This document shows positions 2,796 through 64,000 of a stretch of 64,000 bases of DNA, piece after piece. The first letter of the stretch is position 1. Every line of letters begins with the position of its first letter. Source of the stretch: a virus; the IMG/VR virus record IMGVR_UViG_3300008448_000014, positions 49,910-113,909 of that record; one strand, given 5' to 3'. Position numbers and translations under genes: made by a program. Below the pieces are notes generated by a model that was not told the origin of the DNA, did not search any database, and worked only from the letters and a program-made list of their open reading frames with translations.

Positions 2796-3390
2796 AAATG
2801 GTAAAATTTTACATTCAAAGAATGCAAGCCTCATATGTATGAGCACTTATCAGTTAGTTGTGTATAAGTTAATCAAACCAATGATTACTATTTTAGCACC
2901 TTCTTTCTTATATAAACTGCCTATTATGGTACCTAAATATAAGAGTAAGGTCACGTAGTTTATTGTAATAAGAAGTAAATGTTTCATTACATCCCAATAG
3001 AACTACTTGCTGAGAACTCATTACGTGAGTGTGGAGCCATTCATTATCCACCATAACTAGCACTTTCCTTTCTCAAGGGAACTCACGTTCTAGGATTACT
3101 CCTTGCTACTCTATAGGGTTCTTATGGTTTCCTATTTCACATCTCTCTGGCAATTCAGGATTAGTATCTTTATGTAAATAACAACTTCATAGATGCTACG
3201 TTAACTGTAGAGAAGTTTAATCATCATTTTTATTTACAAACCATCAATGTTTAGGGCTAACTTCTATCAGATTATCAGTTCTGACGCTTTACACAGCTTA
3301 GCTATTGTTTGAGAGTTTTTCATTACAACTCACAAGTGTTGACTTTTCTTCAGTCACCAATAGCACCCATTTAACCTTGGGTACACCAGG
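2765..3390 (-). ncRNA. putative large structured non-coding RNA, about 620 nt
   Basis: About 600 bases with no plausible gene on either strand, visibly richer in G and C than the flanks, in an otherwise gene-packed arm. Read on the minus strand it holds many complementary segments (plus coordinates). These include 3378-3384 with 3363-3369; a nested pair 3230-3238 with 3173-3181 (9 bp) enclosing 3212-3217 with 3183-3188 (6 bp); and 3079-3090 as a GAAC stem with a GUGA (GNRA) loop. Further pairs are 3047-3051 with 3031-3035, 3016-3030 (5-bp hairpin), 2864-2868 with 2846-2850, and 2830-2843. It ends at a strong terminator. The 8-base segments ACGTGAGT and ACTCACGT at about 3081-3088 and 3023-3030 are also complementary, giving an alternative pairing. 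No tRNA, tmRNA or clear RNase P or group I core was found. The 5' end is unknown. Large phage RNAs such as GOLLD or ROOL are a comparison, not an identification. Confidence 0.65.
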
Positions 3391-3395
3391 ATTTA

Positions 3396-3749
3396 TTATT
3401 CTTCTAACAAAGCAGCTTGTTTTCTTAAGAAATCTAGCTTAGCATTGTGTAATTCAAGAGCTTCTTCAGCATCAACTAATTTGTTTTGAGCTAATAATAA
3501 ATTAGAAATATAATAATTTCTATCAGTGATTAAATTACCATTGTTTAATCTAGCAAGTCTTAATGACTCTTTTGCTTCTTCTACAGCATCTTCTAAAGAT
3601 ATAGTATCTCCTGTTAATGATGCAATTTGTGTTTTGAAAGCTGAATCAGCTTGTCTTAAGATTTTTTGTGCTGTTGCTTCTGCATCATCTCCTTTAAGTA
3701 AACAAACAATTTCTGTTACAAATGATTTTACAATTTTTTTAGTTGTCAT
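3396..3749 (-). CDS. coiled-coil hypothetical protein
   Basis: A 117-residue, mostly helical protein with heptad-like spacing over residues about 50-115 (LEDAVEEAKESLRLARL, then LLLAQNKLVDAEEALELHNAKLDFLRKQ). It has no signal peptide or membrane segment, so it is probably a cytoplasmic oligomer. It lies immediately upstream, in transcription order, of the putative ncRNA, so the RNA may share its promoter. No family recognised. Confidence 0.7.
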   Translation of the reverse strand: MTTKKIVKSFVTEIVCLLKGDDAEATAQKILRQADSAFKTQIASLTGDTISLEDAVEEAKESLRLARLNNGNLITDRNYYISNLLLAQNKLVDAEEALELHNAKLDFLRKQAALLEE

Positions 3750-48096: not shown

Positions 48097-51000
48097 ATGC
48101 CAATTTTTGATAATGAACTTTTAAATAATAATTCTGATAGAAACTATGATACTGGTATTGATAGACCTTTAGGTTCTGCAGATATAGGAGAAGTAAATGT
48201 AAACTTAGATATGTCAACAGGTGCATCTTCTGGATTTGGTGTAGCATTTAAAGATTTAGCAAAGTTGGGACAAGCTCCAACTTCTACAGGATTTGATGCT
48301 CCTTTTCAGATGGTTCCTAGAAGTGAGCTGATGGCTAATCAACGTTACCCATTATATGAGAGGGGTCTTGATCTTGAAAACGTATATGGACTACAACAAT
48401 CAGGACTTGCACAATTAGGAAATGGGTTAGTTAAAATGGGGGCATTTGCATTAGGTACATTTGGACAATCATTTGCTACAATTCCTAATACATTTTCTGC
48501 TATTAAAAATGGAAGTTTATCAGATTTATCAAATCCTGATGGATATGAAGCTTCTATAGATGATTGGATGAAAAATGTAGAAGACTACTTTCCAAATTAT
48601 GTAACAAATTATGAAAGATCAAGAGGACTTGCTACAGCTATTCCTTTTACATATGGATCAGCTAACTTCTGGGGAGATAAAATTTTAAAGAACTCAGGGT
48701 TTATGGTGGGTGCAATTGCAGGTGCAGTTGCTCAAGATTTTGCTATTGGTGCTGTTACAGAAGGAGTGGGTGCAGTTCCATTAGTTGCTGTTCAATTAGG
48801 AAAAGCTTCTTTATATTTAAATAAATTATTTTCAGGTGCTAATAAAGTTGATAGAGTGCTAGATCTTGCTAGAGCTACTGGTAAATCTGAACAAACATTA
48901 TTGAACATTGAAAGACTTGGACAACTTGCTGCTGCTACAAAATTAAATAATGGATTTAGATATGGAATGTCTATATATGGTTCTGCAAGAACAGAAGCAG
49001 CTATTGAATCAAGAGAATCTTATAGAACAATAAAAGAAGAACTTACAGAACAATATAAGTTAGATAACTTTGGTGATGAACCTACACCAGAAGCAATTCA
49101 ACAAATAGAAGAATATGCTACAGATGCAATGAATGCTAGATTTGGTATTAACATGGCATTACTCACTGTTTCCAACGCTGTACAGTTTGGTAATTTATTT
49201 AAATCATTTACAGGAGCACAAAAAGGTGTTACATCTTCTTCATTAAATGAATTTGGATCTGCTGGTAAAATAGGACTTAAAGAAGGAACACTTGATACAT
49301 TTGAAAAGAAACTTCCTCAAACATTTTCTGGTAAAGCTTGGGAGTTTGCAAAACCAAAAGCAATTAATATATTTACAGAAGGTGTTTACGAAGAAGGTGG
49401 ACAGTTTGCTGCACAAAAAGGTGTAGAAGATTATTACACAAGAAAATACAAAACAGGAAAAGAAAGTTGGGATTTTGTAAAAGAAGCAATGTATTCTACA
49501 AACAAAGGTTTGTCAGAACAGTTTGGTTCTTCTGAAGGTATAGAAAGCATGGTGATTGGTGCTATTACAGCTGCTATTACTGGACCTGTTGTAGATAGAA
49601 TTACAGGCAAATCAAAAGCAGATAATCAAAGACTTAATAGTACACTTAACATATTAAATCAATATGGAATGACAGGTGTGCTTTCTGATAAGTATGAAAA
49701 TACATCAAGAAGTGTTGAGATAGCAAAACAGATGAATGAAGCTGTTAATTCTGGAAACATCTTTAAATTTAAAAATTTAAAAGCTGACATGTTCTTTGGA
49801 TTTGTAAACTCTCGTATTCCTATAGGAATGCATGATGTTACAATTGAACAATTACAAATGTTGAAAGATCTTCCTAAGGCAGAATTTGAAAAAACATTTG
49901 GAATGGATTTTAATAGTTCAAATCAGTCTACTGTTAGTGGATATGTTGATGCATTAATAACAAAAGCTAATAACATTAATGATATAACAACATCTTTAAA
50001 TTCTACATTTAACAATCCTTATAATAGAATTATAGATCCTAAAACAGTAGAAGAAAAAAATGAAGGTAGAAAATATACAATGTTTGAGAGCTGGAAAACA
50101 GATCTTGCACATCTATCTTACATTCAACAAGATTCTAATCAAAGAATTACAGACATACAAACATCTATATCACAAGTAAATCCTCTTCTTACAAATAATC
50201 TTTTAACATTAGCTTCTAGTGAAAAAGGATTAAAAGAGTTAAGTAATTCTTATGAGCAAAAAGCAAATATGTTAAGTGAATCTCTTGCTAATCTTTCTCC
50301 TGTTGAGAGAACATCTAAACGTGAAGAGATTAAAAAACTTAGAACGCTATCTGAAAAAATAAGCATTTCTTTAAATTCTAATAAAATTGATGATCCAAAA
50401 TTATTTAATGAGTTAATTAATTTTGAATTAAACAATCAAGATTTTTCTCAATCAAATGCTTTAAGAATTGATGAAACTTCAAATCTTGCAACATATGCTG
50501 AAGACTTAAATAAAATAATAGATAGAAGAGAAAAAGCTGCTACACAGTTTGAAGATCTTTCTACAGAGAAAGGATTTGATAAATATTTTGCACAGGAAGA
50601 AGAAATTCAGAAAGAGAAAGAAGAAGAAGGACAACAATCATTATTTCCTCAAGATGAAAAGTTTGGATTTTTAAATAAATCTGGTAAAAAAGAAACAGCA
50701 GAAGTTGGTAGAGAATATCAGATTCCTAATATGTCTCCTGCTAAAGTCAGAAAAACAGGTGAACAATTTAAAGTGACATCACCTACAGGTGAAGTTAAAT
50801 ACTATGATACTAGAGAAGAAGCTAAGCAAGCTGCTGATGATCTTAATGTAGATTTTTCAGAACTAACCACTGTAAAAGTGATAGCTTTAAATGAAGATGG
50901 TACAATTAAAGTGGAAGACTTAGCTGGCAATATTCAAAACATTAATCTATCTACACTAAAAGGGTATGAAAGATTACAAACAGAAGAAGAAAAACTAGCA

Positions 51001-54000
51001 AAGGATAAAGAAACTCTTGATAGAGAATTAGAACAATTAGCACCTACAGGAGGATCTGTACAATCTATTTCTCCTACACCAGGAGAGTTTATTGGTACAG
51101 ATAATAAAGCTAAAGATGTTGATATAGTGTTCTTAGCTACAACATCTCCTTCTGAAGATACAGGAGGTGCTGAAACTAATAATCTTCCTCATATAAAAAG
51201 AGCTAGAACATTTTTAAATAATTTTAAATTCTTTAAGAATAGAAATAAAATAAAAACAATTATTGTCACTCCTAGTAATGTAAATGAATTAGGGTTAGAA
51301 GGACTTATACAACTTTCTTATAATAAAAACATAACTGATGAATTAACAGAAGATGAAACTAATGTTGAAACAGGGTTTATGGCTCAAGTGTTTATTATAC
51401 AAACACCTGAAGGGAACTTCTTTGTTAATGATAAAGGAGAGAAGTTAAATAAAATAGGAGAATCATCATCTACAATACTTGATAATGTTGTATTTCAAAC
51501 AATGACTTCTGCTAGTTTAGTTACAGAAGGAGGGTATACAAAAATTAGAAAAGGACAAGAAGAACAAGCTGATATAGCATTAGAAGCATATAAAATATTT
51601 AGACAAGAGCTGTTTGGACAAACTGGTTATACACCTTATCCATTTGCTATATCAAGAGGTATACCAAATCAAAATGTAGTTAATGGTGTATATGAAGACA
51701 ATCACATGTCTGATATACTTGGACCAAATGCAGAAAGAATAATAGCTGAACATAATGGATTGATTGAAGTTGTTACTACTGGTCAAGTAGAAAACAATGG
51801 AGAACTATTATCTTTTCCTGTAGGAACAACATTAATTAGATTTGGGGATTTGTTAGACTTTGCAAATAATAAAGTGTTAACTAACAAACAAGCTAATAAT
51901 GTATTCCATGTAATAAATGCAATGGCTAAAGATTTAATTGCTAAATCTAGTACAGCTAAAGCAGGTAAACCTGATTATGGATATATTACATTCTTAAAGA
52001 ATGTTTTATATTTTAAATTTAAAGGAAACCCAACTACTCCTAGTCAAATAAGTATTGACACTACAACAATGAATTTTAGAATAGGAAATAAATCTTTTCC
52101 TTTTTCTGAAATTGAAACTAGAAAACAAGAATTAATGGATGCTTTACAAGAAGCATTTATTAGTGTTAACAATAAAACCCTAACTGACTTAGGAACATCT
52201 AAAGAGTTTACAGAGTATGTAGCTGATAAAGATGGAAACTTAACAAAAGTTGTATGGGCAAATTATCAATCATTTTTATTATCTAGTAAAAATCCTGATG
52301 GTTCTACAAGATCTGTAGGAGAAACTCCTTTGATTACACATACATCTAAACCAACAGAAAATACAAATTCATATAAGCAAAAGTATTCCTATATAACAGA
52401 TACAGATATACTACCATATGATAGAGTTCCTGTTAAAGAAGTTAAACCAACTCCTACACAATCTCCAAATAAAATTGGAGAATATGAAGTTAATACATCT
52501 ACTGCTCAAACATTTCCTATTAACTCAGGACCAATATTGTTTACAGCAACATTATCTCCTGAAGGAGAAATTGCTGTCACTGTACAAAGCAATCAAACAA
52601 TCTCTGATCTTTCTACAGACCCTATAAAGATTAAAACTATTGATAGCTCATTAAAAGCAAATTTATCTCCTGAAGAAATTCAAGAATTTGATAAAAAATC
52701 AAATGAAGATAAAGCTAAATTGTTTATTGGAGCAGCAATAACACAATCATTAAACAAAACATTAGCAGAACAACAAACTACTCCTGCAGTAGAAGAAGTT
52801 GTACAACCAATGGCTCCACCAGAAGTTGTAGCTCAACAAGATATAGAAGCTAAGAAAGCTGATATAGAAAAAAGAAGACAAGAAGAATTAATATCTGCTG
52901 TAACTACTCTTATATCTTATGAAGATTTTACAAAAACTAAACCTAAAGAAGTTATAGTTAATAATTTTGATGTATATCAATATGATAAATATTTAAAAAA
53001 GTATGTATTAGTTGGTGCAGTTTCTTCAACAGATACAAGCTTAGAAAGTATTGCAGCAAGAGAAGAAGGAGCTAAAGATGTAGACTTTTTTAAAGATAAG
53101 TCTTTAAAGCTTGATACAGTAAGCTTTTTTTGGGCTGAGAGAACAACTGGAAGAAGTCCAATTACTAGATTAACTAACTATAAACAACGTACAAAACAAG
53201 GAAGAATAGATGAAAGAGTTGGTCAATTATTGGTAGATATCAATGCTAAATATGATGTAGAACTAGCTGCTTTAGAAGAAACTAAACCTGTAGAAGATGC
53301 CCCATATGATCCTTCTAAGAAAAAAAGAAGAGGGGAAGCTCCTGAGTTTAGAATGGTAGGAGCAGCAGATGTTTCTGATAGAATGACTGATGCTGATTTT
53401 GAAGCATTCAAACAATGGCATGCAGAAAAAGTTCCTTTCATTCCTTTTGAAGATCTTGAAAGAATGGTTAATGTGAATGACACTGAAGAAGCTTGGGGTG
53501 TATTTGAAAATGGTATAGCTAAGTTTGTAAGAGGTGGATTAAGAGGTACAGAGTATCATGAAATTGGTCATGGTATATGGACTATGTTGTCTACTGCAGA
53601 ACAAGAAGCTTTATTAAATGAATTTAGATCTAAACCTGGTACATTTACAGATAGAGCGTCTGGTAAGAAGATAGAGCATATAGATGCTACAGATACTCAA
53701 GCTGAAGAAAGAATATGGGATGACTTCTCTGATTTTAGACTTGGTAAACTTCCAGCTAGATCATTAGGAGAAAGAATTCGTAGATTATTTAAAATGGTTA
53801 TGGACTTCTTTAAATCATTTGGAAGTAAACCATCATTGAAAAATGAATTGTTTGAAGCAATTGAAGCTGGTAGATTTAAAGAAACAAAACTATCAGAAAG
53901 AGCTAAGACCATGGCTCCTAAATATAGAGCAATAGAAGGATTAACAGAAGAGCAAACTAACAACTATATCAATGATATGGTATTTCAAGTTAGTCGTATT

Positions 54001-57000
54001 ATATTTAGAGAAGGAAATAAAGATGCTTTATTTAATCCTGAACAATTGACAGGTGAACAAGTATTTAATCAAGTTAGAGAGAACTATGAAGAGCTTGGTG
54101 AAATAGATGCATTAGGAGAAAAGAGATATAATGAACTTGTTAAGAGAACTATTAATTCAATAAGAACAAGAGGTATATCATTTAACGCTGATGAGGTGGT
54201 AACTATAAATGATGAAAATGCTAATTCAAGAGATTATGCTCCAGAAGCTTTTTCTGTAGACTGGAAAAAACATTCTACAGGAGCTCTTAAGTTTTTACTA
54301 TCTACATTAGCAGAAAGAAAAGCATTAAATCAAACTAATGTTGAAAAATTAACACCATTAAAACCTGCTGCATATAATTTATCTAATGAAGGATTTAAAA
54401 TATTAAACTTTAATAGAGTGTTTGCTACATTGTTAGATAGACTACATAATACAAACAGTCCTGAAGAGTTTACTAAAAAGTTTATACAATTAGCAAAAGA
54501 AGATTCAAACTATCTTGCTTTGTTTGTATCATTAGGAGGTAATACAGTTACACATGAATTTGATTTTCCTAACTTTGGAGAGTCAGACTGGAAACTATTT
54601 ATACAATTTTTTAATACATTCTCTAGACAAAAACCAGAAGCATTAATTCAATATACCTCTGAAGAAGGAGATATATACACAGGCCCTGCAAATCTATTCA
54701 CAACAGTTAAACAAACTACTGAAGGATGGATTGATAACATGCGTACTATTGGTAAAGGTGAAGGTGGATTAATTAATTACGATAAAGCTAATAAAGTATA
54801 TAAAATAAACACTGTAAAAATTAAAGATTTATCTGTTAAAAAATCTACAGATCAAATTAAATTTTTAAATGAATTAGGTATAGAATTTAATCAAGGTACT
54901 TATAATGCTCTTAGTAATAAAGAAGCTATTATAAAAGGAGAAACAACTACAGAGGTAAAAGAATTTAATAAAGCTGTATCTAAAATATATACACAACTAG
55001 GAAAGAATAATGACTTAATGACATTTGATGCTAAAAGACTAGCTATTAATGGACCATTAAGAACATTAGCTGAATTATATACAAGAGTTAATAATCCTAA
55101 TCAAGATTCTACATATTTTGGTGTAGAGGGGCAACGCATTGGTTCATTCTCTGAAAACAATGCTCCTTCTTATTTTGAGAATACATTTAATGAGTCTAAC
55201 ACATTAACAGAGCTTTTAGAAAAAATGCCTCAATTAAATGATGTATATTCTAGAGGAAGTGAAATATTAAAACCAGGAGGATTATTTTTTGATAAAGATG
55301 GTAATAGAATAGCTGAACTTAAAGTTGGATATATACAAGGAAGTAAAAATCAATTAGATGGTACAGCAAAAACTACATCTAGATTATCTAGAGGACAAAG
55401 ATTTGTACAAGAAATAAATCAAAATATAAATGGTAATTACTATGTACTTATTCCTGGGGATAGTTCTACAGAGTGGATGATGAACTTAGGAAATGTCATT
55501 TCAATGGATGATGTATTAGATGGTAAGCATTGGGATAAAGTATATAGTATATATAACAACTATTTAAATGATGAAATTAATTTAGCATTATCAGATAGAA
55601 CACAAAACATTTATCAAAGAGCTAAGTCTAAAGAACTTAGAATAATGAAAGATGTACTTCCAGAAAAAATTGTTGAGAAAATAGAATCAATGATTGATAA
55701 TGGAAAAACTTACGATGCTATACAAGAATACATTTCTGATAATAGAACAGATATAAATTCTTCTATAAAAGATTTTATTGATGATATGTCAAAAGAAACA
55801 ATTGATATATTATTAAACTCTAGCCAAATTATAATGGTTGGAGAAAATGAATATGTTATTAATAAGTTTGATACAGAATTCTTAAAAAAATATAATTTAA
55901 ATGATAAAATAACTTTTGATGAGTTAATGAATGTTATAAACTTTGTTAACATTAATTATCAAATAAACAATCAAGAATATCACAAAGTATTATTTGGAGA
56001 TCCTTATCAGTTTAAAACTGCTAAAGGAAAACTAGATGAAACAAAACGTATTAAATCTTTCTTATCTCCTAGAAGAAGAACATTTAATATGACAGAATAT
56101 AATAACTTTTTAAATGATCAATATAACTCTATAGATGGTATTGAACTAGAAGAAGGTGTTCCAGGAAGTCATAAGTATAAATCATATACTAATACTGTAA
56201 CACTTAACACTGTAGAGATTGTTGGTAGTATTGCAACACTTCCTAATGTTCCTGAAAATATAAAAAGTACATTTGCTAAAACAGATGAAACAGATGCAAT
56301 GTCTTGGTTGATGGATAATACACATAAAGAAATTGCTCTTAAAGAAGGACAATGGACAGAACAAGCTGAGGCATTTCATCAATGGCATATGGCTTACACT
56401 AGAAGAGCATTTGATAAAAAAGGGATTAAAGCATACACAAGTGAACAATTAAAAGCAAAAGATGCTAAATTGTTAGAATCTCCTATACCTAAACATAAAC
56501 TTGCTGTAAGAAAACCTATTGTATCTGGTAACAAGTTTAACAAAACAGAAATAGATCTTGTATTAGATAAAACATCTCAGATTCCTTTATATTACAACAT
56601 GGTTGAAGGTACTAATTTAGAGAACATGTATATTCAAATGTTTAATCAAAACATTGGATATAGTATTGTTACAACTGGTAGAAAAGTAGGAGCTGAAGGA
56701 TTACATAATATATATAATAGTGATGGTACATTTAATACAGAACAATTTAATAATGTAATAGAAGTTCCTTGGATAGCGTATGGTACACAAGTGGAAACTA
56801 TGTCTGAAGGAGATAAAACCCAAACAAGAGGTTCTCAACTTACAAAATTAGCTAGCTCTGATTTATATAAAAATGGAGAAGCTATTACTGAAGAAGGTAA
56901 ACAAGCATATGAAAGAAACAATAAAGCATTAGATATGCTTAATGAGAATGCATATAATGAATTATTAAATAAGCTTGGTGTTGTAGATCTTGGAAATACA

Positions 57001-60000
57001 TATGCTCTTGAGAACAAACAAATAATATCAGAAACTCTTATGTATGAAATGATGCGTAGAGACCTTTCTGAAAATGCTATTGATACAATTCAATTAAATG
57101 AAAATGGTGAGTTTATTATGCCATTTGAAGCTTCTCCTTCTTATACACAAATAAAAAACATTCTTTATTCTATGGTGAATAAAGCATTAATTTCTCCTTC
57201 AATGAGTGGTGCTCCACATGTACAGGTTCCTGTAACAATGTTTGAAAAAGCTACAGAAGGAAGAAGTTTTGCTAGAAAAACTGATACAGGTTGGGAGAAG
57301 ATTTCTAAAGCTCAATATAAAGCTCTTACAGAAGAAGAAAAGAAATCTGTTATGCTTACAGATGATACACTTAAATTTTATGAGAATAAAGATGGCAAAC
57401 GCTATTGTGAAGTGATGCTTCCTCATTGGTTTAAGAATAAGTTTGGAGATATGACAGATAAAGAAATATTATCTTACTTAAATACTTCTGAAGGCCAAAA
57501 AATATTAACTGGTATAGGATTTAGAATACCAACACAATCTCTCTCTTCTATAGAAGTATTTAGAGTTAAAGGATTTCTTCCACAGTATATGGGATATACA
57601 GTTGTTGTTCCTTCTGAAATAACTACTAAAGCTGGATCTGACTTTGATATTGATAAATTAAACATGTATCTTAAATCTATATACACTGATAGAAATGGAA
57701 ATGTTAAATTAGTTAAATGGCAAGGAACAGAACAAGCTACAAAAGATTTCTTTGCAAAGGTATATGATGAATCAACAGAAAGAAAAGCTTTAAAGAAAGC
57801 AGAGCTTATAGAAGCTATTGATATATTAGTATATGGACTAGAAGACACTAAAGGATTATTAAACAAATATGGAGAGTATATTCTTTCTATACAAGATAAA
57901 TACGAAGATCCTTTTATGTTTAGAGCTGAAATGGAAAAAGAATTAGATAGATTAAATGATGCTAATCTAAATGCTGAACTAAGACAATCTTACATAAATA
58001 CAATGTATAAGAAATCTCTTGAGAATGAATACTATGATTCATTAGAAGAACTTCTTACACTTGAAGAAAACTTCAATAAACTTATTAGTCCTGTAGATGA
58101 TGCTGGTCTTGAAAAAATGTCTGAAGTATTAGATAGTGCTAGAGGATATAATGAATCTAGTGTTAAAGGAAGACTTATTAATAGAAATTACATGACTAAT
58201 TTACGTCATGCATTTATTACTGGTAAAAGATGGGTTGGTATTGCTGCTGTTAATATTACAAATCTTTCATTGAGACAGAAAAGTAAAGTGTATTTAAACC
58301 CTGCTAAACTTTCTTCTTTATCTGCACAAGAACGTAAGTTTGTACAAGACTTATCAATTGTTCTTCCACATAATAAAGTGAATATTGAGGGACAACAATA
58401 TGTTTCTTTATCTGGAACAAAAACTTCTGATGATAGTCAATTTATTTCAGAAAGATTATCTGGGTATGCTACAGCATTTGTGGATATTGCAAACAAACCT
58501 TTTATTACTAAGATTATAAAGAGTGATATAGTAGTTTCTACATTTATGTTTTTAGAATCTATAGGTGCTGGTAATTCAGGAATATATTTCTTAAATCAAC
58601 CTATTATAGAAAAGTATTTAGAATACTTAGATGGTATAGGATCAAAAAGTGTTATGGGAAAAGATAATCTTGCTTATATAAGAAACATGTTCCCTACAAC
58701 AGAAAAAGCAATAGAAGATGCTAGTATATCTGTAGAAGGATTATTAGATAATATAAAAGAATATTCTGAAAAAGGTGAGTTTTATAGTAACGCTAAATAT
58801 GCTGAACAACAATTAATATTGAATGAGTTTATTAAATACAAAATATTAGCAGATCAGTTATTTAGTTATACACAAGCTACAAACTATGATACAACAAAGT
58901 TTGGCAGTTCAGATTTATATTTCAAAAAACAATTAGGAACAATTGCTGCAAGTAATTTTAATTTGATTTCTAATGTTGATGATGTATTAAAAAATACATT
59001 TATAGGAAAGCAATCTGAGTTATTAGGAAAATCATTCAATGCTTTTGGAGCAATAATGAAAACAGAAGATCCTAAAATAAAAGCATACATGATTGATACT
59101 CTTAAGAAATATGCTTCAAGAAAATACATGTCTGCAGATGATTATATGAAGATTGCTAATTTGATTAACAATTCTTTTATAGATTACATTATACAGAACG
59201 ATAGAACTTATTACAATTTGATTAAGCCAGACCTTGTAGATTCTGCAACAGCTGTTGTAACTAAACTAGAACAAGCTAAACAAAAATATCCTTCTATAAA
59301 ACTATTACAAGACCTTGTTCCTGTACTTAGTAATAGAGAAGATGGAGCTAAATCTATTCAATTGAAAGCAAACGTCAAAGATGCATATAGTGAAAACTTA
59401 TATGTAGGAATGATGAGAGAGTTAAGAGATATTAATCCAGAACTTAATAGTCTATATAATAATATTATTAATGTTGCTATATTACAAGGAACTGCACAAT
59501 CAGCTATATCTTTAAGAAATATTATTCCTGTAGAAGATTATGCTGCTAAGATTACTCCTATTATAAATAATCTTCAACCAAACATAAACTTAGAATCTTT
59601 TTCTAATGGAATGTTTGAAAGAAATAATTTTAATAACAAAGATGTATTTATGGATTATACTCCTTTTGCTAATCCTTCACAAAGAGAAGCAGATGAAATA
59701 CTTAATCCTAATACAGGAGAAACTGAAATATTATATTATATACCAGCATTTAAACAAACAAAAGGTTCACAAAAAGGATTGCTAGTTTTAAATGATAAAT
59801 ACAATTCATTTCAATTAAGCTCTGATTTTATTAAAGTTCCTAAAGTTATAACAGCTAGAGATGGAAGTAAAGTTAATATAGCTACAAGAAGTGAAGTTAC
59901 AGCTAGAGATTATGCATTAATGAAACAAAAAGGTTCACAAGATCTTTATGATGCATACTATTATAAAAAAGTGTATACAACTAATATGGATGAGTTTGGC

Positions 60001-60897
60001 AATCTTCTCCCATTAGTAGTTCCTACTATTGATAAAAAAACAGGAGATGTTCTATATAACTATTATTATAAACAAGTTAATGTATATGGAGATGGTAATA
60101 GAGCTGTAGAATTTAATACAAACTTCACACCTTCTGTTATTGATAATGGTTCTATAACAATTCAAGAAGAACTATCAGACAGTGAAATAGTAAATCAATT
60201 TACTCCACAGATTGCAGAAGAAGTTGTATCTTTACCAATTAAACCAAGTATGCCTAGCAAACCAGCTATTATATCTGAAACAACTGTGACTCAACCTACA
60301 CAACCATTGACTGGAGAAAAAATTAATATCTATGCAGGTACAGGAGAGAATGCTGAGTTAAGTAATTTTGCTGACAGACCTTTTATAGATACAGATGGAG
60401 CAATAGGTTTTGGGTATTCAGAAGTTACAGGTAAGGATATTACTTTTAAAACAGTTGAAGGATATTTTCAAGCTACTAAACTTATATATACAGATGCTTC
60501 TGAATATTGGACAAAAGAAAATACATTAACAGAGCAGGGAATAAAACTTGTAGAACAGTTTGCTAATGCTACTGGAGCACAGGCTAAGTCTTTAGGCAGA
60601 ACTGTAAAAGAATTAAATAAGAAAGATTGGGATGATATTTCTTCTGCTGTAATGAGTGATGGTTTAAGAATGTCTTTTGAACAAAATCCAAATGCTCTTG
60701 CTAAGTTATTAGCTACAGGTAACTCAGAATTAACGCATACACAAGATAAAGGTAAATGGGGCAAAGAGTTTCCAAGATTACTTATGGAAGTAAGAGAAGA
60801 ACTTAGACCTGCGCAAATAGGAGAACAATTAGATTTGTTTACAGAAGAAGACTTAGGTCTTAATACAGATTTTAACCAAGATGATTTTAAATGTTAA
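48097..60897 (+). CDS. giant cargo protein: zincin-like protease, DFDID RNA polymerase, NADAR domain
   Basis: A 4266-residue protein. Residues about 100-235 hold hydrophobic segments (MVGAIAGAVAQDFAIGAV) that could form a membrane channel on entry. Residues about 540-850 are helical, followed by charged spacers. A zincin-like protease has HEIGH at 1821-1825 and a downstream Glu-rich helix (AEERIWDDF) for the third ligand. The RNA polymerase core has D3182-F-D-I-D3186 after TTKAGS, the catalytic double-psi barrel motif of the crAss-like single-chain polymerase (phi14:2 gp66 type). That enzyme is packaged and transcribes early genes after injection. Residues about 4075-4240 are a NADAR domain: ELSNF, TVEGYFQATK with E4121 and K4128, and WGKEFPRLLMEVREEL. 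Far longer than the single-function polymerase, so several cargo proteins appear fused. Confidence 0.88.
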   Translation: MPIFDNELLNNNSDRNYDTGIDRPLGSADIGEVNVNLDMSTGASSGFGVAFKDLAKLGQAPTSTGFDAPFQMVPRSELMANQRYPLYERGLDLENVYGLQQSGLAQLGNGLVKMGAFALGTFGQSFATIPNTFSAIKNGSLSDLSNPDGYEASIDDWMKNVEDYFPNYVTNYERSRGLATAIPFTYGSANFWGDKILKNSGFMVGAIAGAVAQDFAIGAVTEGVGAVPLVAVQLGKASLYLNKLFSGANKVDRVLDLARATGKSEQTLLNIERLGQLAAATKLNNGFRYGMSIYGSARTEAAIESRESYRTIKEELTEQYKLDNFGDEPTPEAIQQIEEYATDAMNARFGINMALLTVSNAVQFGNLFKSFTGAQKGVTSSSLNEFGSAGKIGLKEGTLDTFEKKLPQTFSGKAWEFAKPKAINIFTEGVYEEGGQFAAQKGVEDYYTRKYKTGKESWDFVKEAMYSTNKGLSEQFGSSEGIESMVIGAITAAITGPVVDRITGKSKADNQRLNSTLNILNQYGMTGVLSDKYENTSRSVEIAKQMNEAVNSGNIFKFKNLKADMFFGFVNSRIPIGMHDVTIEQLQMLKDLPKAEFEKTFGMDFNSSNQSTVSGYVDALITKANNINDITTSLNSTFNNPYNRIIDPKTVEEKNEGRKYTMFESWKTDLAHLSYIQQDSNQRITDIQTSISQVNPLLTNNLLTLASSEKGLKELSNSYEQKANMLSESLANLSPVERTSKREEIKKLRTLSEKISISLNSNKIDDPKLFNELINFELNNQDFSQSNALRIDETSNLATYAEDLNKIIDRREKAATQFEDLSTEKGFDKYFAQEEEIQKEKEEEGQQSLFPQDEKFGFLNKSGKKETAEVGREYQIPNMSPAKVRKTGEQFKVTSPTGEVKYYDTREEAKQAADDLNVDFSELTTVKVIALNEDGTIKVEDLAGNIQNINLSTLKGYERLQTEEEKLAKDKETLDRELEQLAPTGGSVQSISPTPGEFIGTDNKAKDVDIVFLATTSPSEDTGGAETNNLPHIKRARTFLNNFKFFKNRNKIKTIIVTPSNVNELGLEGLIQLSYNKNITDELTEDETNVETGFMAQVFIIQTPEGNFFVNDKGEKLNKIGESSSTILDNVVFQTMTSASLVTEGGYTKIRKGQEEQADIALEAYKIFRQELFGQTGYTPYPFAISRGIPNQNVVNGVYEDNHMSDILGPNAERIIAEHNGLIEVVTTGQVENNGELLSFPVGTTLIRFGDLLDFANNKVLTNKQANNVFHVINAMAKDLIAKSSTAKAGKPDYGYITFLKNVLYFKFKGNPTTPSQISIDTTTMNFRIGNKSFPFSEIETRKQELMDALQEAFISVNNKTLTDLGTSKEFTEYVADKDGNLTKVVWANYQSFLLSSKNPDGSTRSVGETPLITHTSKPTENTNSYKQKYSYITDTDILPYDRVPVKEVKPTPTQSPNKIGEYEVNTSTAQTFPINSGPILFTATLSPEGEIAVTVQSNQTISDLSTDPIKIKTIDSSLKANLSPEEIQEFDKKSNEDKAKLFIGAAITQSLNKTLAEQQTTPAVEEVVQPMAPPEVVAQQDIEAKKADIEKRRQEELISAVTTLISYEDFTKTKPKEVIVNNFDVYQYDKYLKKYVLVGAVSSTDTSLESIAAREEGAKDVDFFKDKSLKLDTVSFFWAERTTGRSPITRLTNYKQRTKQGRIDERVGQLLVDINAKYDVELAALEETKPVEDAPYDPSKKKRRGEAPEFRMVGAADVSDRMTDADFEAFKQWHAEKVPFIPFEDLERMVNVNDTEEAWGVFENGIAKFVRGGLRGTEYHEIGHGIWTMLSTAEQEALLNEFRSKPGTFTDRASGKKIEHIDATDTQAEERIWDDFSDFRLGKLPARSLGERIRRLFKMVMDFFKSFGSKPSLKNELFEAIEAGRFKETKLSERAKTMAPKYRAIEGLTEEQTNNYINDMVFQVSRIIFREGNKDALFNPEQLTGEQVFNQVRENYEELGEIDALGEKRYNELVKRTINSIRTRGISFNADEVVTINDENANSRDYAPEAFSVDWKKHSTGALKFLLSTLAERKALNQTNVEKLTPLKPAAYNLSNEGFKILNFNRVFATLLDRLHNTNSPEEFTKKFIQLAKEDSNYLALFVSLGGNTVTHEFDFPNFGESDWKLFIQFFNTFSRQKPEALIQYTSEEGDIYTGPANLFTTVKQTTEGWIDNMRTIGKGEGGLINYDKANKVYKINTVKIKDLSVKKSTDQIKFLNELGIEFNQGTYNALSNKEAIIKGETTTEVKEFNKAVSKIYTQLGKNNDLMTFDAKRLAINGPLRTLAELYTRVNNPNQDSTYFGVEGQRIGSFSENNAPSYFENTFNESNTLTELLEKMPQLNDVYSRGSEILKPGGLFFDKDGNRIAELKVGYIQGSKNQLDGTAKTTSRLSRGQRFVQEINQNINGNYYVLIPGDSSTEWMMNLGNVISMDDVLDGKHWDKVYSIYNNYLNDEINLALSDRTQNIYQRAKSKELRIMKDVLPEKIVEKIESMIDNGKTYDAIQEYISDNRTDINSSIKDFIDDMSKETIDILLNSSQIIMVGENEYVINKFDTEFLKKYNLNDKITFDELMNVINFVNINYQINNQEYHKVLFGDPYQFKTAKGKLDETKRIKSFLSPRRRTFNMTEYNNFLNDQYNSIDGIELEEGVPGSHKYKSYTNTVTLNTVEIVGSIATLPNVPENIKSTFAKTDETDAMSWLMDNTHKEIALKEGQWTEQAEAFHQWHMAYTRRAFDKKGIKAYTSEQLKAKDAKLLESPIPKHKLAVRKPIVSGNKFNKTEIDLVLDKTSQIPLYYNMVEGTNLENMYIQMFNQNIGYSIVTTGRKVGAEGLHNIYNSDGTFNTEQFNNVIEVPWIAYGTQVETMSEGDKTQTRGSQLTKLASSDLYKNGEAITEEGKQAYERNNKALDMLNENAYNELLNKLGVVDLGNTYALENKQIISETLMYEMMRRDLSENAIDTIQLNENGEFIMPFEASPSYTQIKNILYSMVNKALISPSMSGAPHVQVPVTMFEKATEGRSFARKTDTGWEKISKAQYKALTEEEKKSVMLTDDTLKFYENKDGKRYCEVMLPHWFKNKFGDMTDKEILSYLNTSEGQKILTGIGFRIPTQSLSSIEVFRVKGFLPQYMGYTVVVPSEITTKAGSDFDIDKLNMYLKSIYTDRNGNVKLVKWQGTEQATKDFFAKVYDESTERKALKKAELIEAIDILVYGLEDTKGLLNKYGEYILSIQDKYEDPFMFRAEMEKELDRLNDANLNAELRQSYINTMYKKSLENEYYDSLEELLTLEENFNKLISPVDDAGLEKMSEVLDSARGYNESSVKGRLINRNYMTNLRHAFITGKRWVGIAAVNITNLSLRQKSKVYLNPAKLSSLSAQERKFVQDLSIVLPHNKVNIEGQQYVSLSGTKTSDDSQFISERLSGYATAFVDIANKPFITKIIKSDIVVSTFMFLESIGAGNSGIYFLNQPIIEKYLEYLDGIGSKSVMGKDNLAYIRNMFPTTEKAIEDASISVEGLLDNIKEYSEKGEFYSNAKYAEQQLILNEFIKYKILADQLFSYTQATNYDTTKFGSSDLYFKKQLGTIAASNFNLISNVDDVLKNTFIGKQSELLGKSFNAFGAIMKTEDPKIKAYMIDTLKKYASRKYMSADDYMKIANLINNSFIDYIIQNDRTYYNLIKPDLVDSATAVVTKLEQAKQKYPSIKLLQDLVPVLSNREDGAKSIQLKANVKDAYSENLYVGMMRELRDINPELNSLYNNIINVAILQGTAQSAISLRNIIPVEDYAAKITPIINNLQPNINLESFSNGMFERNNFNNKDVFMDYTPFANPSQREADEILNPNTGETEILYYIPAFKQTKGSQKGLLVLNDKYNSFQLSSDFIKVPKVITARDGSKVNIATRSEVTARDYALMKQKGSQDLYDAYYYKKVYTTNMDEFGNLLPLVVPTIDKKTGDVLYNYYYKQVNVYGDGNRAVEFNTNFTPSVIDNGSITIQEELSDSEIVNQFTPQIAEEVVSLPIKPSMPSKPAIISETTVTQPTQPLTGEKINIYAGTGENAELSNFADRPFIDTDGAIGFGYSEVTGKDITFKTVEGYFQATKLIYTDASEYWTKENTLTEQGIKLVEQFANATGAQAKSLGRTVKELNKKDWDDISSAVMSDGLRMSFEQNPNALAKLLATGNSELTHTQDKGKWGKEFPRLLMEVREELRPAQIGEQLDLFTEEDLGLNTDFNQDDFKC

Positions 60898-60916: not shown

Positions 60917-63900
60917 ATGAGTTGTGATTTAGGTATACAAAGAATAACAAAAAAGGTTTTAAATAATAAGCCTTGGTTTGAATATCAAGAAGGGGATAAA
61001 TATATTCGTATAATAGATTCTCCTAGTGGAAAAATTAATCAAAGCAACTATAAAGGTGTAGCGGATACAACAGCTAGTGCTATTAATAAAGCAATAAACA
61101 AAGGTTATAAGAATATAGGAGATATTGCTTATTCTATATTTTTAAATGGAAAAGGTGTTGTTGAATTAAATCCTTCTAAAAAACAATTAGATTTATTAAA
61201 TGCTCAAAGAGAAGAAGAAATAGCAGAAATACAACAAGAAGTAGATGAAGAAAATCAAATAAAGGAATTTGATAAACTTAATCAAGAAGCTAATATAAAT
61301 ATTGAAGAAGGTGAAGTTTCACCTATGTTACAGTTACAGAAAGAAGGACAAAAAGCTGCTTCTCCAAAACTAATTAAATTAATGAAAGAATTCATTAAGC
61401 AAATTGGTGTTGATTACAAACTAGTTGAAAATATTGTTGTAAATGGAAAGAAGCAAGATGCTAATGGTGTAGCTCTCATAATGCAGAAACTTATTCAAGT
61501 GGTAGAAGGACAAGAAGATGTTGCTCTACCAGAAGAAGCTATGCACTTTGCTGTAGAGATTATAAAACAAACCAATCCTAAATTATACCAACAGCTTCTT
61601 AAAGAAATCAATGATCATTCCAAATTGAATGAAGTGATTGCTTTATATGGAGATCATCCATTATATCAAAAAGATGGTAGACGTGACATAGTTAAACTTA
61701 AAGAAGAAGCTATTGCTCAAGTGTTAGCAGATAGAATGGAAGATGTTGTTGCAAGAACTTGGTGGCAAAAAATTCTTGATTGGTTAACTCCTAGATTTTT
61801 AAAAGCTGGATTTGACAAAGCTTCTATGGATGTATTGGCAGGTAGACTAGCTAGTGTAGAAGACATTGATGTTTCTAAAGGAAGTGCTTATTTCCAATTA
61901 CAAAAAGGAGAACAAGTGTTCAATGATTTATTAGAAACTTCTAAAAGAATAGAAACAAAAGATGGTGGATATGAATTAGATGGAATAAAATCTGTACGAA
62001 GAGTTTCTGATTTTGCAAAAGAGTTTTACGAAAGAATATTTCCACAGATAGGCAAGACAGCATTTGAAGATGCTGTAAATACATTAAAGGCAGAAAAAGG
62101 AACTGCAGGGCATGCTGATATTGAACATGCTTTAAAGGTGCTTGTAGATCCAGAAACAGGGTTATTGAGAGATCAAATGTTAGATGATGAAGATTATGTT
62201 TCAGAACTTAATTCTAATGATAGAAGAATGTATGAGATACTTAGAGATAATCTAAAAGAACGTTTATTATCATTTAATGAAGGTAATAATAAAGGAACTA
62301 GATTTATGTCTGAGGTAAAGATATTTGATAAGAAAAGAAAAATAGCTGGAACTGTAGATTTTATTGCTGTCACTCCTGAAGGTAAAGTGACCATACTTGA
62401 CTGGAAGTTTATGGATCTTGATACAGATAAGTATGAAGACATTCCTTGGTATAAAGTGGAAGCTTGGAGAATACAGATGGGTAAATACAAAGACATTGTA
62501 GCTACTAATTATAATGTAAAGAGTCAAGACTTTGATCAAACAAGAATGATTCCTATATTAGCTAAGTATACAAAAGCTGATTTTGAAAAAGAAATTCTTC
62601 CTAGACTTTTAGAAATAAGAATAGGAAGTACGAATGTTCAGAACATCCAAGAAGATTACTTACTTCCTTTAGGAACTATGGATGAAAAGACAGGAAATAA
62701 AAAAATTGATAAGTTGATAGAAAAGTTCAATGCTACATATAGAAAACTTGCCGAAGAAAAAGTTAATGAAAATGAAAGAGGAAGTAAAGCTGAACAACTA
62801 AATTCTTTATATAAAGCTATTAGACATTTACAGATTAAAGGAAACATTGTTCCATTAATTAATCAGGCTAAAATATTGAACAAGCAAGTATCAATGTTGT
62901 TAAAAAGATATAAAACTGACTTTGAAGGTAAAGAACCTTCTGAAGTAGATAGTGATAAAATAAATGCATTTGCAGGAATGATTAGAGTGCATCTTGAAGC
63001 ATTACAACCTTACTTAGATCTTAAACAACTAGGAACATTGCTTACTGATGAAACAGAGGAAAATGATAAATTAAAGATAGAACTTAGTCTTACTAGAGAT
63101 AAAGTTGAAGATTTTATATCTGAACTTGTAGACTTAGATGAAACTTTTGGAGAAAAGTTTAATAATACTAGTAGTACACCAGAAAAAGTTGTAAAAGGTA
63201 TTAGTAAATGGTTTTCTAGTATTTCTACAATACAGGTTGCAAATATTCAAACATTATATAAACTTGCAAATAAAGCATTTGCTTTAGCTAATATAGAAAC
63301 TACTGAACAAGTAAAAAGATTAGAAAATCTAAAAGATGAATATCAAACATGGGCATCTTCTAAAGGTTTAAATGTTGGTAATTATTTTAATATTCTTATG
63401 AAAAAAGATAAGAATGAATTAATTGACCAATACTCTAATGAGTTTTATGATGAGTTAAAGAAAAGAATAGCTAAAAAAGATTATAATTGGATACTTAATA
63501 ATGTTAATCAAGATTTGTACAGAGCACATTTAGAAGAATTAACTGAAAAAGAAATACAAGAAATATTATCAAGGCCAAGAGTTGGTACAGAAGAAGACGT
63601 AAAGGCTTCTATAAAGAAAGATATGGCTAAGATTTATAATAAATATGATCTTACTACTAAAACTTCTAATGGTTGGTTAATATATAAACAAGTTAAACTA
63701 TTTCCAATAATAGATAAATGGGAGTCTGCAGAATGGAAAGAACTTAATAAACCAGAGAATGCTCCAGCTAAAAAATTCTATGATTATATAGTAGAAAGAA
63801 ATAAATATTTTCAATCAGTAGGATATTTAAATGGTAAAGCTGCTAAAAGATTTCTTCCTTGGATAAGACAAGGATTTACAGAAGGTCTTATATTTGATGG

Positions 63901-64000
63901 TAAATCAAGAGGACTTGGAGAACAATTTCTTAGAAATATATCAATGGATGAGAATGAAGCTGGATATGGACAAACAAATCCTATTACAGGTGAATTAATT
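60917..64000 (+). CDS. giant cargo protein with PD-(D/E)XK nuclease motif (partial)
   Basis: ATG at 60917 and 1028 codons without a stop; the gene continues past the window. Residues about 200-275 look like a degenerate zincin: E206-E-A-M-H210 in place of HExxH, followed by VKLKEEAIAQVLADRM. Residues about 455-500 carry a RecB/Cas4-like nuclease motif: E466 in FMSEVKIFD, G-T-V-D481 and I-L-D495-W-K497. The remaining part is helical. Such nuclease-bearing proteins follow the polymerase gene in crAss-like phages and are probably injected. They may cut host DNA or process phage DNA. No other domain recognised. Confidence 0.8.
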   Translation, partial: MSCDLGIQRITKKVLNNKPWFEYQEGDKYIRIIDSPSGKINQSNYKGVADTTASAINKAINKGYKNIGDIAYSIFLNGKGVVELNPSKKQLDLLNAQREEEIAEIQQEVDEENQIKEFDKLNQEANINIEEGEVSPMLQLQKEGQKAASPKLIKLMKEFIKQIGVDYKLVENIVVNGKKQDANGVALIMQKLIQVVEGQEDVALPEEAMHFAVEIIKQTNPKLYQQLLKEINDHSKLNEVIALYGDHPLYQKDGRRDIVKLKEEAIAQVLADRMEDVVARTWWQKILDWLTPRFLKAGFDKASMDVLAGRLASVEDIDVSKGSAYFQLQKGEQVFNDLLETSKRIETKDGGYELDGIKSVRRVSDFAKEFYERIFPQIGKTAFEDAVNTLKAEKGTAGHADIEHALKVLVDPETGLLRDQMLDDEDYVSELNSNDRRMYEILRDNLKERLLSFNEGNNKGTRFMSEVKIFDKKRKIAGTVDFIAVTPEGKVTILDWKFMDLDTDKYEDIPWYKVEAWRIQMGKYKDIVATNYNVKSQDFDQTRMIPILAKYTKADFEKEILPRLLEIRIGSTNVQNIQEDYLLPLGTMDEKTGNKKIDKLIEKFNATYRKLAEEKVNENERGSKAEQLNSLYKAIRHLQIKGNIVPLINQAKILNKQVSMLLKRYKTDFEGKEPSEVDSDKINAFAGMIRVHLEALQPYLDLKQLGTLLTDETEENDKLKIELSLTRDKVEDFISELVDLDETFGEKFNNTSSTPEKVVKGISKWFSSISTIQVANIQTLYKLANKAFALANIETTEQVKRLENLKDEYQTWASSKGLNVGNYFNILMKKDKNELIDQYSNEFYDELKKRIAKKDYNWILNNVNQDLYRAHLEELTEKEIQEILSRPRVGTEEDVKASIKKDMAKIYNKYDLTTKTSNGWLIYKQVKLFPIIDKWESAEWKELNKPENAPAKKFYDYIVERNKYFQSVGYLNGKAAKRFLPWIRQGFTEGLIFDGKSRGLGEQFLRNISMDENEAGYGQTNPITGELI

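Follow-up and report, generated by a model that had tools for sequence, protein, structure and literature searches.

Why does the giant RNA polymerase of a crAss-like phage end in a NADAR domain, and what could this domain do there? The locus lies in the final 64 kb (the window, i.e. the whole stretch of 64,000 nucleotides that was analysed) of a 113,909-base virus record, IMGVR_UViG_3300008448_000014. Terminase, portal and capsid families, characteristic of a crAss-type genome, were all found in the record by family search. Its portal shows 27% identity to that of cr6_1, and its TerL is closest to that of Leptolyngbya phage Lbo-JY46 and next to those of Cellulophaga phages phi4:1 and phi17:2; both proteins are crAss-like yet divergent in sequence. 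No named phage was matched when the polymerase region was compared by megablast, the clade being environmental and divergent. In Lbo-JY46, the nearest isolate by TerL, no polymerase core or cargo was recognisable in the three large proteins examined.

The polymerase and the gene that follows it are organised as follows:

48097..60897, + strand: giant RNA polymerase polypeptide of 4266 aa with no internal stop, the largest ORF of the window (ORF reading, homology)
53557..53571, + strand: HEIGH zincin-type (HExxH) metallopeptidase motif, residues 1821-1825, N-terminal half (motif reading)
56563..58776, + strand: RNA polymerase core, residues ~2823-3560, matching PDB 6vr4, the phi14:2 vRNAP (phmmer, E=4e-19)
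57640..57654, + strand: catalytic DFDID (DxDxD) motif, residues 3182-3186 (aligned with 6vr4)
60917..64000, + strand: next gene of the transcription block, at least 1028 aa, running past the record end (likely g065 counterpart; PD-(D/E)XK-like stretch by eye)

When the 4266-aa protein was used as a query, phmmer retrieved phi14:2 gp66 (6vr4, E=4e-19) and aligned the DFDID motifs of the two, and tblastn returned Crassvirales transcription proteins, among them phi14:2 g066, annotated as 'Catalytic RNA polymerase subunit' (3e-20). The two phages have in common the polymerase core, its DFDID motif and the transcription gene block, which runs g067-g066-g065 in phi14:2, where all three products are annotated from MS/MS. 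They differ in that the window chain has apparently fused the upstream protein in and gained a C-terminal cargo; indeed, judging from its length, it appears to unite g067- and g066-like proteins. The ORF from 60917 is likely the g065-like RNAP-associated protein. According to PMC7886860, large proteins associated with transcription have a PD-(D/E)XK-type domain in some phages. Since the polymerase homologues are virion components, as with phi14:2 g065-g067 and with phicrAss001, whose gp47, gp49 and gp50 are present in virions (PMC10172136), we infer by analogy with these distant relatives that the polymerase of the window phage is packaged and injected.

The C-terminal end of the chain contains the following elements:

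60319..60819, + strand: NADAR domain, residues 4075-4241 (family profile, Pfam, model)
60457..60459, + strand: E4121, equivalent of E43 (distal ribose) of P. nicotianae NADAR (alignment; invariant in 35 fused NADARs)
60478..60480, + strand: K4128, equivalent of K50 (pyrophosphate, essential) (alignment; invariant in 35 fused NADARs)
60736..60738, + strand: H4214, at the E125/D171 catalytic position, a phage-type histidine (alignment; invariant in 35 fused NADARs)
60820..60897, + strand: C-terminal tail GEQLDLFTEEDLGLNTDFNQDDFKC, common to the NADAR-less sister phage L047, 77/78 nt identical including the stop codon (DNA alignment)
60826..60840, + strand: QLDLF pentapeptide in this tail (sequence reading)

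NADAR is the sole Pfam family found in the 4266-aa protein and occurs once in the whole record. The match to PF08719 covers residues 4085-4223 (E=2.1e-14 with the whole protein, 5e-16 with the C-terminal piece) and scores 54.5 bits, the curated cut-off being 35.1. All 35 fused NADARs that we collected match the NADAR profile, and a profile built from them retrieves, among solved structures, YbiA 2b3w (7e-19) and P. nicotianae NADAR 8bau (9e-16). As modelled by AlphaFold2 (pLDDT 88.8), the domain has the YbiA/NADAR fold: Foldseek against the PDB matched it solely to 2b3w and to the ADP-ribose-bound 8bau (prob 1.00), the next match having E=1.4. The earlier note, made from the sequence alone, had proposed a NADAR domain at 60319-60860, fused to the end of a virion RNA polymerase. 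Its identification of the domain is borne out by the Pfam match and the model, and the C-terminal fusion to a crAss-type polymerase by the single open frame that holds both the NADAR and the core matching 6vr4. The start it gave is exact, whereas its end overshoots into the short C-terminal tail, as the domain stops at 60819. The catalytic residues, on whose retention the proposal hinged, are all in place.

The catalytic residues of NADARs have been defined as E43, K50 and E125, the third being D in DarT1-linked and H in phage NADARs (PMC11543638). H4214 at the third position makes the window NADAR one of the phage (His) type, to which T4 gp30.3 also belongs. It resembles the other members of the superfamily (YbiA, DarT1-linked NADAR, 8bau, T4 gp30.3) in fold, Pfam family and the catalytic E and K. 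The dN/dS between this NADAR and that of a related contig, L006, is ~0.42 (Nei-Gojobori), which suggests that the domain is under selection to stay functional.

The domain forms most of a cassette that is absent from the sister phage:

60236..60819, + strand: inserted cassette composed of linker and NADAR, 584 bp versus 23 bp in sister phage L047 (DNA alignment)

In L047 the same polymerase gene lacks the NADAR and then continues into the same short tail; identity to the window polymerase is 84% along the full chain and ~90% in the core region used for the tree. The net difference of 187 codons is in frame, and the flanks are nearly identical (265/300 nt on the left, 77/78 on the right); the NADAR is therefore a cassette that was inserted, and assembly did not create it. 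For a metagenome contig with the NADAR close to the gene end, it had been worth asking whether a neighbouring NADAR gene was joined to the polymerase by contig chimerism or by overlooking a stop. This was rejected, because the frame runs through the NADAR into the tail shared with L047, with matching empty and filled sites; similar fusions occur in ~30 further contigs and in phage records of GenBank, and the probability left to an artefact is negligible. A GGAGAA-type short repeat is found on both sides of the cassette and might, speculatively, offer a foothold for recombination.

Other close relatives, L046 and L050, carry an AlkB-like oxygenase (PF13532; 5e-14 and 3e-14) at the site of the cassette. 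Moreover, the window and L021 are ~68% alike in their polymerases and just ~54% in their NADARs, while the L006 NADAR is 79% identical to that of the window. These discordant identities mean that the cassettes have not just descended along with the polymerase.

To see how widespread such arrangements are, we scanned IMG/VR starting from the NADAR (39 loci) and from the polymerase (68 loci). About 30 other viral contigs hold a NADAR within the polymerase ORF, mostly after the core; it lies upstream in L023, L027, L030 and L036. Two weak NADAR-like matches (L057 and L099, E of 2e-5 and 6e-5, with the last part incomplete) were left uncounted. Cargo was counted in 59 non-identical polymerases that had been sampled by their core and had a complete C-terminus. 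After the core, 43 have no recognised domain, 7 have AlkB, 6 a helicase, 3 a NADAR, 3 DUF7831 and 2 DprA. Further cargo detected by Pfam comprises helicases of the RecD/UvrD type (AAA_30/UvrD_C_2), cpYpsA SLOG, ART-PolyVal and DUF1848. Some chains combine several domains, in the order core-AlkB-NADAR-helicase in L021 and L104 and core-NADAR-ART in L012, and SLOG adjoins the NADAR in five polymerases (L014, L015, L018, L031 and L044). In a tree built from 50 closer polymerases, from whose final change count chains cut by a contig end (e.g. L087) were left out, at least 6 changes are required to account for 7 C-terminal NADARs, and 5 for 6 AlkBs, so cargo turnover is rapid. Read from these sequences, the polymerase has an exchangeable cargo slot directly after its core, and NADAR is one of several interchangeable domains. 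Since most relatives are without NADAR, any benefit from it must be conditional.

The fusion had been taken to be unusual. It is indeed far from universal, as a C-terminal NADAR occurs in just 3 of the 59 polymerases; it is not, however, peculiar to the window phage, as ~30 further contigs have it too, along with named crAss-like phages of the gut. In the literature searched, of which the coverage is partial so that prior notice is possible, we found no description of a NADAR fused to a crAss-like polymerase, in agreement with what the earlier note had stated. NADARs, crAss polymerases and polyvalent polymerases of the N4 type are each known; that literature yielded no account of their combination, its recurrence or the cargo slot. 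Phage NADARs are typically standalone according to PMC9503650, while that of the window is fused to a polymerase of probable virion type, and a domain search found no NADAR in phi14:2 gp66. A close parallel is the N4-like vRNAP, also an injected polymerase joined to accessory enzymes, if the window polymerase is injected as supposed. As far as the accessible text of PMC5512222 goes, the N4 enzyme belongs to the unrelated single-subunit T7 class, its partners are zincin, lysozyme or RNase, no NADAR is described on it, and in such polyvalent proteins the polymerase delivers accessory enzymes ahead of phage gene expression.

These observations suggest a role for the fusion. Swappable repair or NAD-linked domains at one spot make the polymerase look like a delivery vehicle against host defences. 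We propose, with confidence that stands about midway, that the NADAR of an injected polyvalent polymerase strips off host-made ADP-ribose, most likely from guanines of the incoming DNA or of early RNA. The giant polymerase of the clade would be a polyvalent protein with a transcription core and an exchangeable slot just behind, filled in the window phage by a phage-type NADAR that keeps its catalytic residues. The chain would be packaged, then injected along with the genome, and the NADAR would hydrolyse N-glycosidic ADP-ribose adducts placed by host defence ADP-ribosyltransferases. As a consequence, the template could be free of blocks for the tethered polymerase, and for later replication, within the first minutes, ahead of phage gene expression. 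Phages must survive these minutes, and a polymerase equipped with swappable counter-defence enzymes would deliver them in time. The proposal draws on DarTG, which ADP-ribosylates phage DNA in the course of infection (PMC11543638). In DarTG1 (DarT1-NADAR), the NADAR likewise reverses guanine ADP-ribosylation; it is there a host antitoxin beside DarT1, whereas here it sits on a phage polymerase. The other slot cargo, AlkB-like oxygenases and RecD/UvrD-type helicases, handles nucleic acid, which we count in favour of a nucleic-acid substrate. We likewise count in favour of the proposal the L012 chain, with NADAR plus ART, and those of L021 and L104, with NADAR beside AlkB and helicase. T4 gp30.3, the sole His-type phage NADAR with an assay in the literature searched, hydrolyses ADP-ribosyl-guanosine in vitro (PMC11125620). 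Since gp30.3 did not rescue cells from DarT1 in the same study, a simple anti-DarT1 role is not to be assumed.

This failure to rescue also fits a different substrate: an injected NADAR could degrade soluble defence signals or toxic products derived from NAD or ADP-ribose, the fusion being mere packaging for early delivery. We regard this as the main competing reading and a strong one, though less probable than an act on nucleic acid. The earlier note had named both kinds of target, ADP-ribose on incoming DNA and an NAD-based defence, and the sequence is compatible with either. PMC9503650 argues that phage NADARs mostly act on soluble ADP-ribose derivatives, the SLOG domains that adjoin several NADARs belong to the same signal vocabulary, and the gut phage cr126_1 encodes a putative nicotinamide phosphoribosyltransferase and a ribose-phosphate pyrophosphokinase. 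The remaining slot cargo speaks against it by handling nucleic acid, and the best 25 families of the record's upstream ORFs include no other one of NAD metabolism. The NADAR-ART order in L012, which resembles ART-NADAR toxin-antitoxin pairs (PMC11543638, PMC11125620), raises the idea that the NADAR is a built-in immunity against the phage's own injected or early ADP-ribosyltransferases. This is quite improbable, as such a chain is seen in 1 of ~32 fusions, and neither a DarT1-type toxin nor any other ART was found in the 4266-aa chain by Pfam or among the best 25 families listed for those upstream ORFs. Finally, the domain might be a passenger without a role in infection, or a housekeeping N-glycosidase that detoxifies riboflavin-pathway intermediates, an activity E. 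coli YbiA has according to a work cited in PMC11543638. We consider this unlikely: the window NADAR is of the His (phage) and not of the Glu (YbiA) type, it appears to be under purifying selection, and it is repeatedly and independently present on polymerases. Slow housekeeping is also unlikely because the NADAR is expected in the virion.

A further reading is that the NADAR acts as a protein of its own. The HEIGH motif in the chain, in which Pfam gave no profile match to a zincin family, could point to release by a protease, zincin processing having been proposed for polyvalent proteins (PMC5512222), and an internal start could likewise yield a separate NADAR. We find such separate action very unlikely, since of 58 relatives whose N-terminal half is complete just 23 have HExxH; it is compatible with the proposed role and not exclusive of it.

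A broader and more tentative idea is that the slot is a docking site for swappable decontamination enzymes (NADAR for ADP-ribose, AlkB for alkyl groups, helicase for blocks), which would physically couple template clearing to first transcription at genome entry. The QLDLF pentapeptide of the tail resembles the sliding-clamp binding pentapeptide of bacteria, and such a clamp-like QLxLF motif, which some tails have, might hold the complex on the DNA. The cassette-free sister phage L047 provides a natural control for the NADAR cassette, and the list of cargo leads to testable predictions on the host defences met by these phages.

The arrangement extends to named phages of the gut. In the uncultured cr126_1 (Kolpuevirus hominis, human gut), a NADAR (residues 53-205, 49.7% identical to that of the window) and the core (from residue 1435, DFDID at 1509) form one protein, as in the window, but with the NADAR N-terminal to the polymerase. 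In cr130_1, core and NADAR share a single CDS, and a cr272_1 protein comprises core, NADAR, DUF7831 and DUF1848, whereas cr131_1 encodes its NADAR as a protein of its own, two genes downstream from the core. The cr126_1 polymerase CDS is labelled 'DUF1768 domain-containing protein' and not RNA polymerase. The analysis also shows that gut phage proteins recorded as 'DUF1768' or 'DprA-like' form part of a fusion with the main RNA polymerase.

Several polymerases carry more than one cargo domain in a single chain. In the surveyed locus L012, a single ORF of 4022 aa encodes the RNA polymerase (RNAP) at 1988, NADAR at 3334 and an ADP-ribosyltransferase (ART-PolyVal) at 3718, and it is possible that this chain represents an ADP-ribosylating enzyme carrying its own eraser, the NADAR domain. 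The order polymerase-AlkB-NADAR-helicase is observed in one chain at L021/L054 and L104, with a length of 5141 aa in L054, and the AlkB-NADAR-helicase arrangement is identical in L021/L054 and L104 although their polymerases are rather distant. A protein of the human gut phage cr126_1 (L117, 5509-12717), labelled in GenBank as 'DUF1768 domain-containing protein', combines an N-terminal NADAR with the DFDID core of an RNA polymerase; the same genome also encodes two putative enzymes, a nicotinamide phosphoribosyltransferase and a ribose-phosphate pyrophosphokinase. Two families of unknown function, DUF7831 and DUF1848, are likewise recurrent cargo of crAss polymerases (tails of L078, L082, L106 and L014; cr131_1; cr272_1).

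A motif search of the tails and a reading of motifs in the N-terminal half of the window polymerase revealed two short elements:

60826-60840, + strand, QL[DSN]LF-type pentapeptide near the polymerase C-terminus
53557-53571, + strand, HExxH motif in the N-terminal half

The pentapeptide, which resembles the bacterial sliding-clamp binding motif, is also present near the C-terminus in the tails of L007, L032, L047, L051, L077, L084, L090, L092, L095, L098, L099 and L106. When the motif is relaxed to Q[LM][DSGNEA]L[FWY], it occurs in 17 of 83 tails, with 0.3 expected from shuffling; these 17 include homologous tails and some in which the motif sits where the AlkB cassette begins.

Among 58 relatives whose N-terminal half is complete, 23 have HExxH in that half, with patchy gain and loss; this variability indicates that the N-terminal half is mosaic too. 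Around residues 1600-1800, the window polymerase and that of L047, the sister phage lacking NADAR, are only 38% alike.

Among named phages, the closest TerL (39.6%) belongs to Leptolyngbya phage Lbo-JY46 (PP438436), whose host is given as cyanobacterial. The other known crAss-like phages are those of Bacteroidota, and this host assignment may be worth checking. Many HNH/homing endonuclease family matches lie among the window ORFs between 1044 and 48087, and GIY-YIG/NUMOD3 matches are present in the upstream part of the record, before the window.
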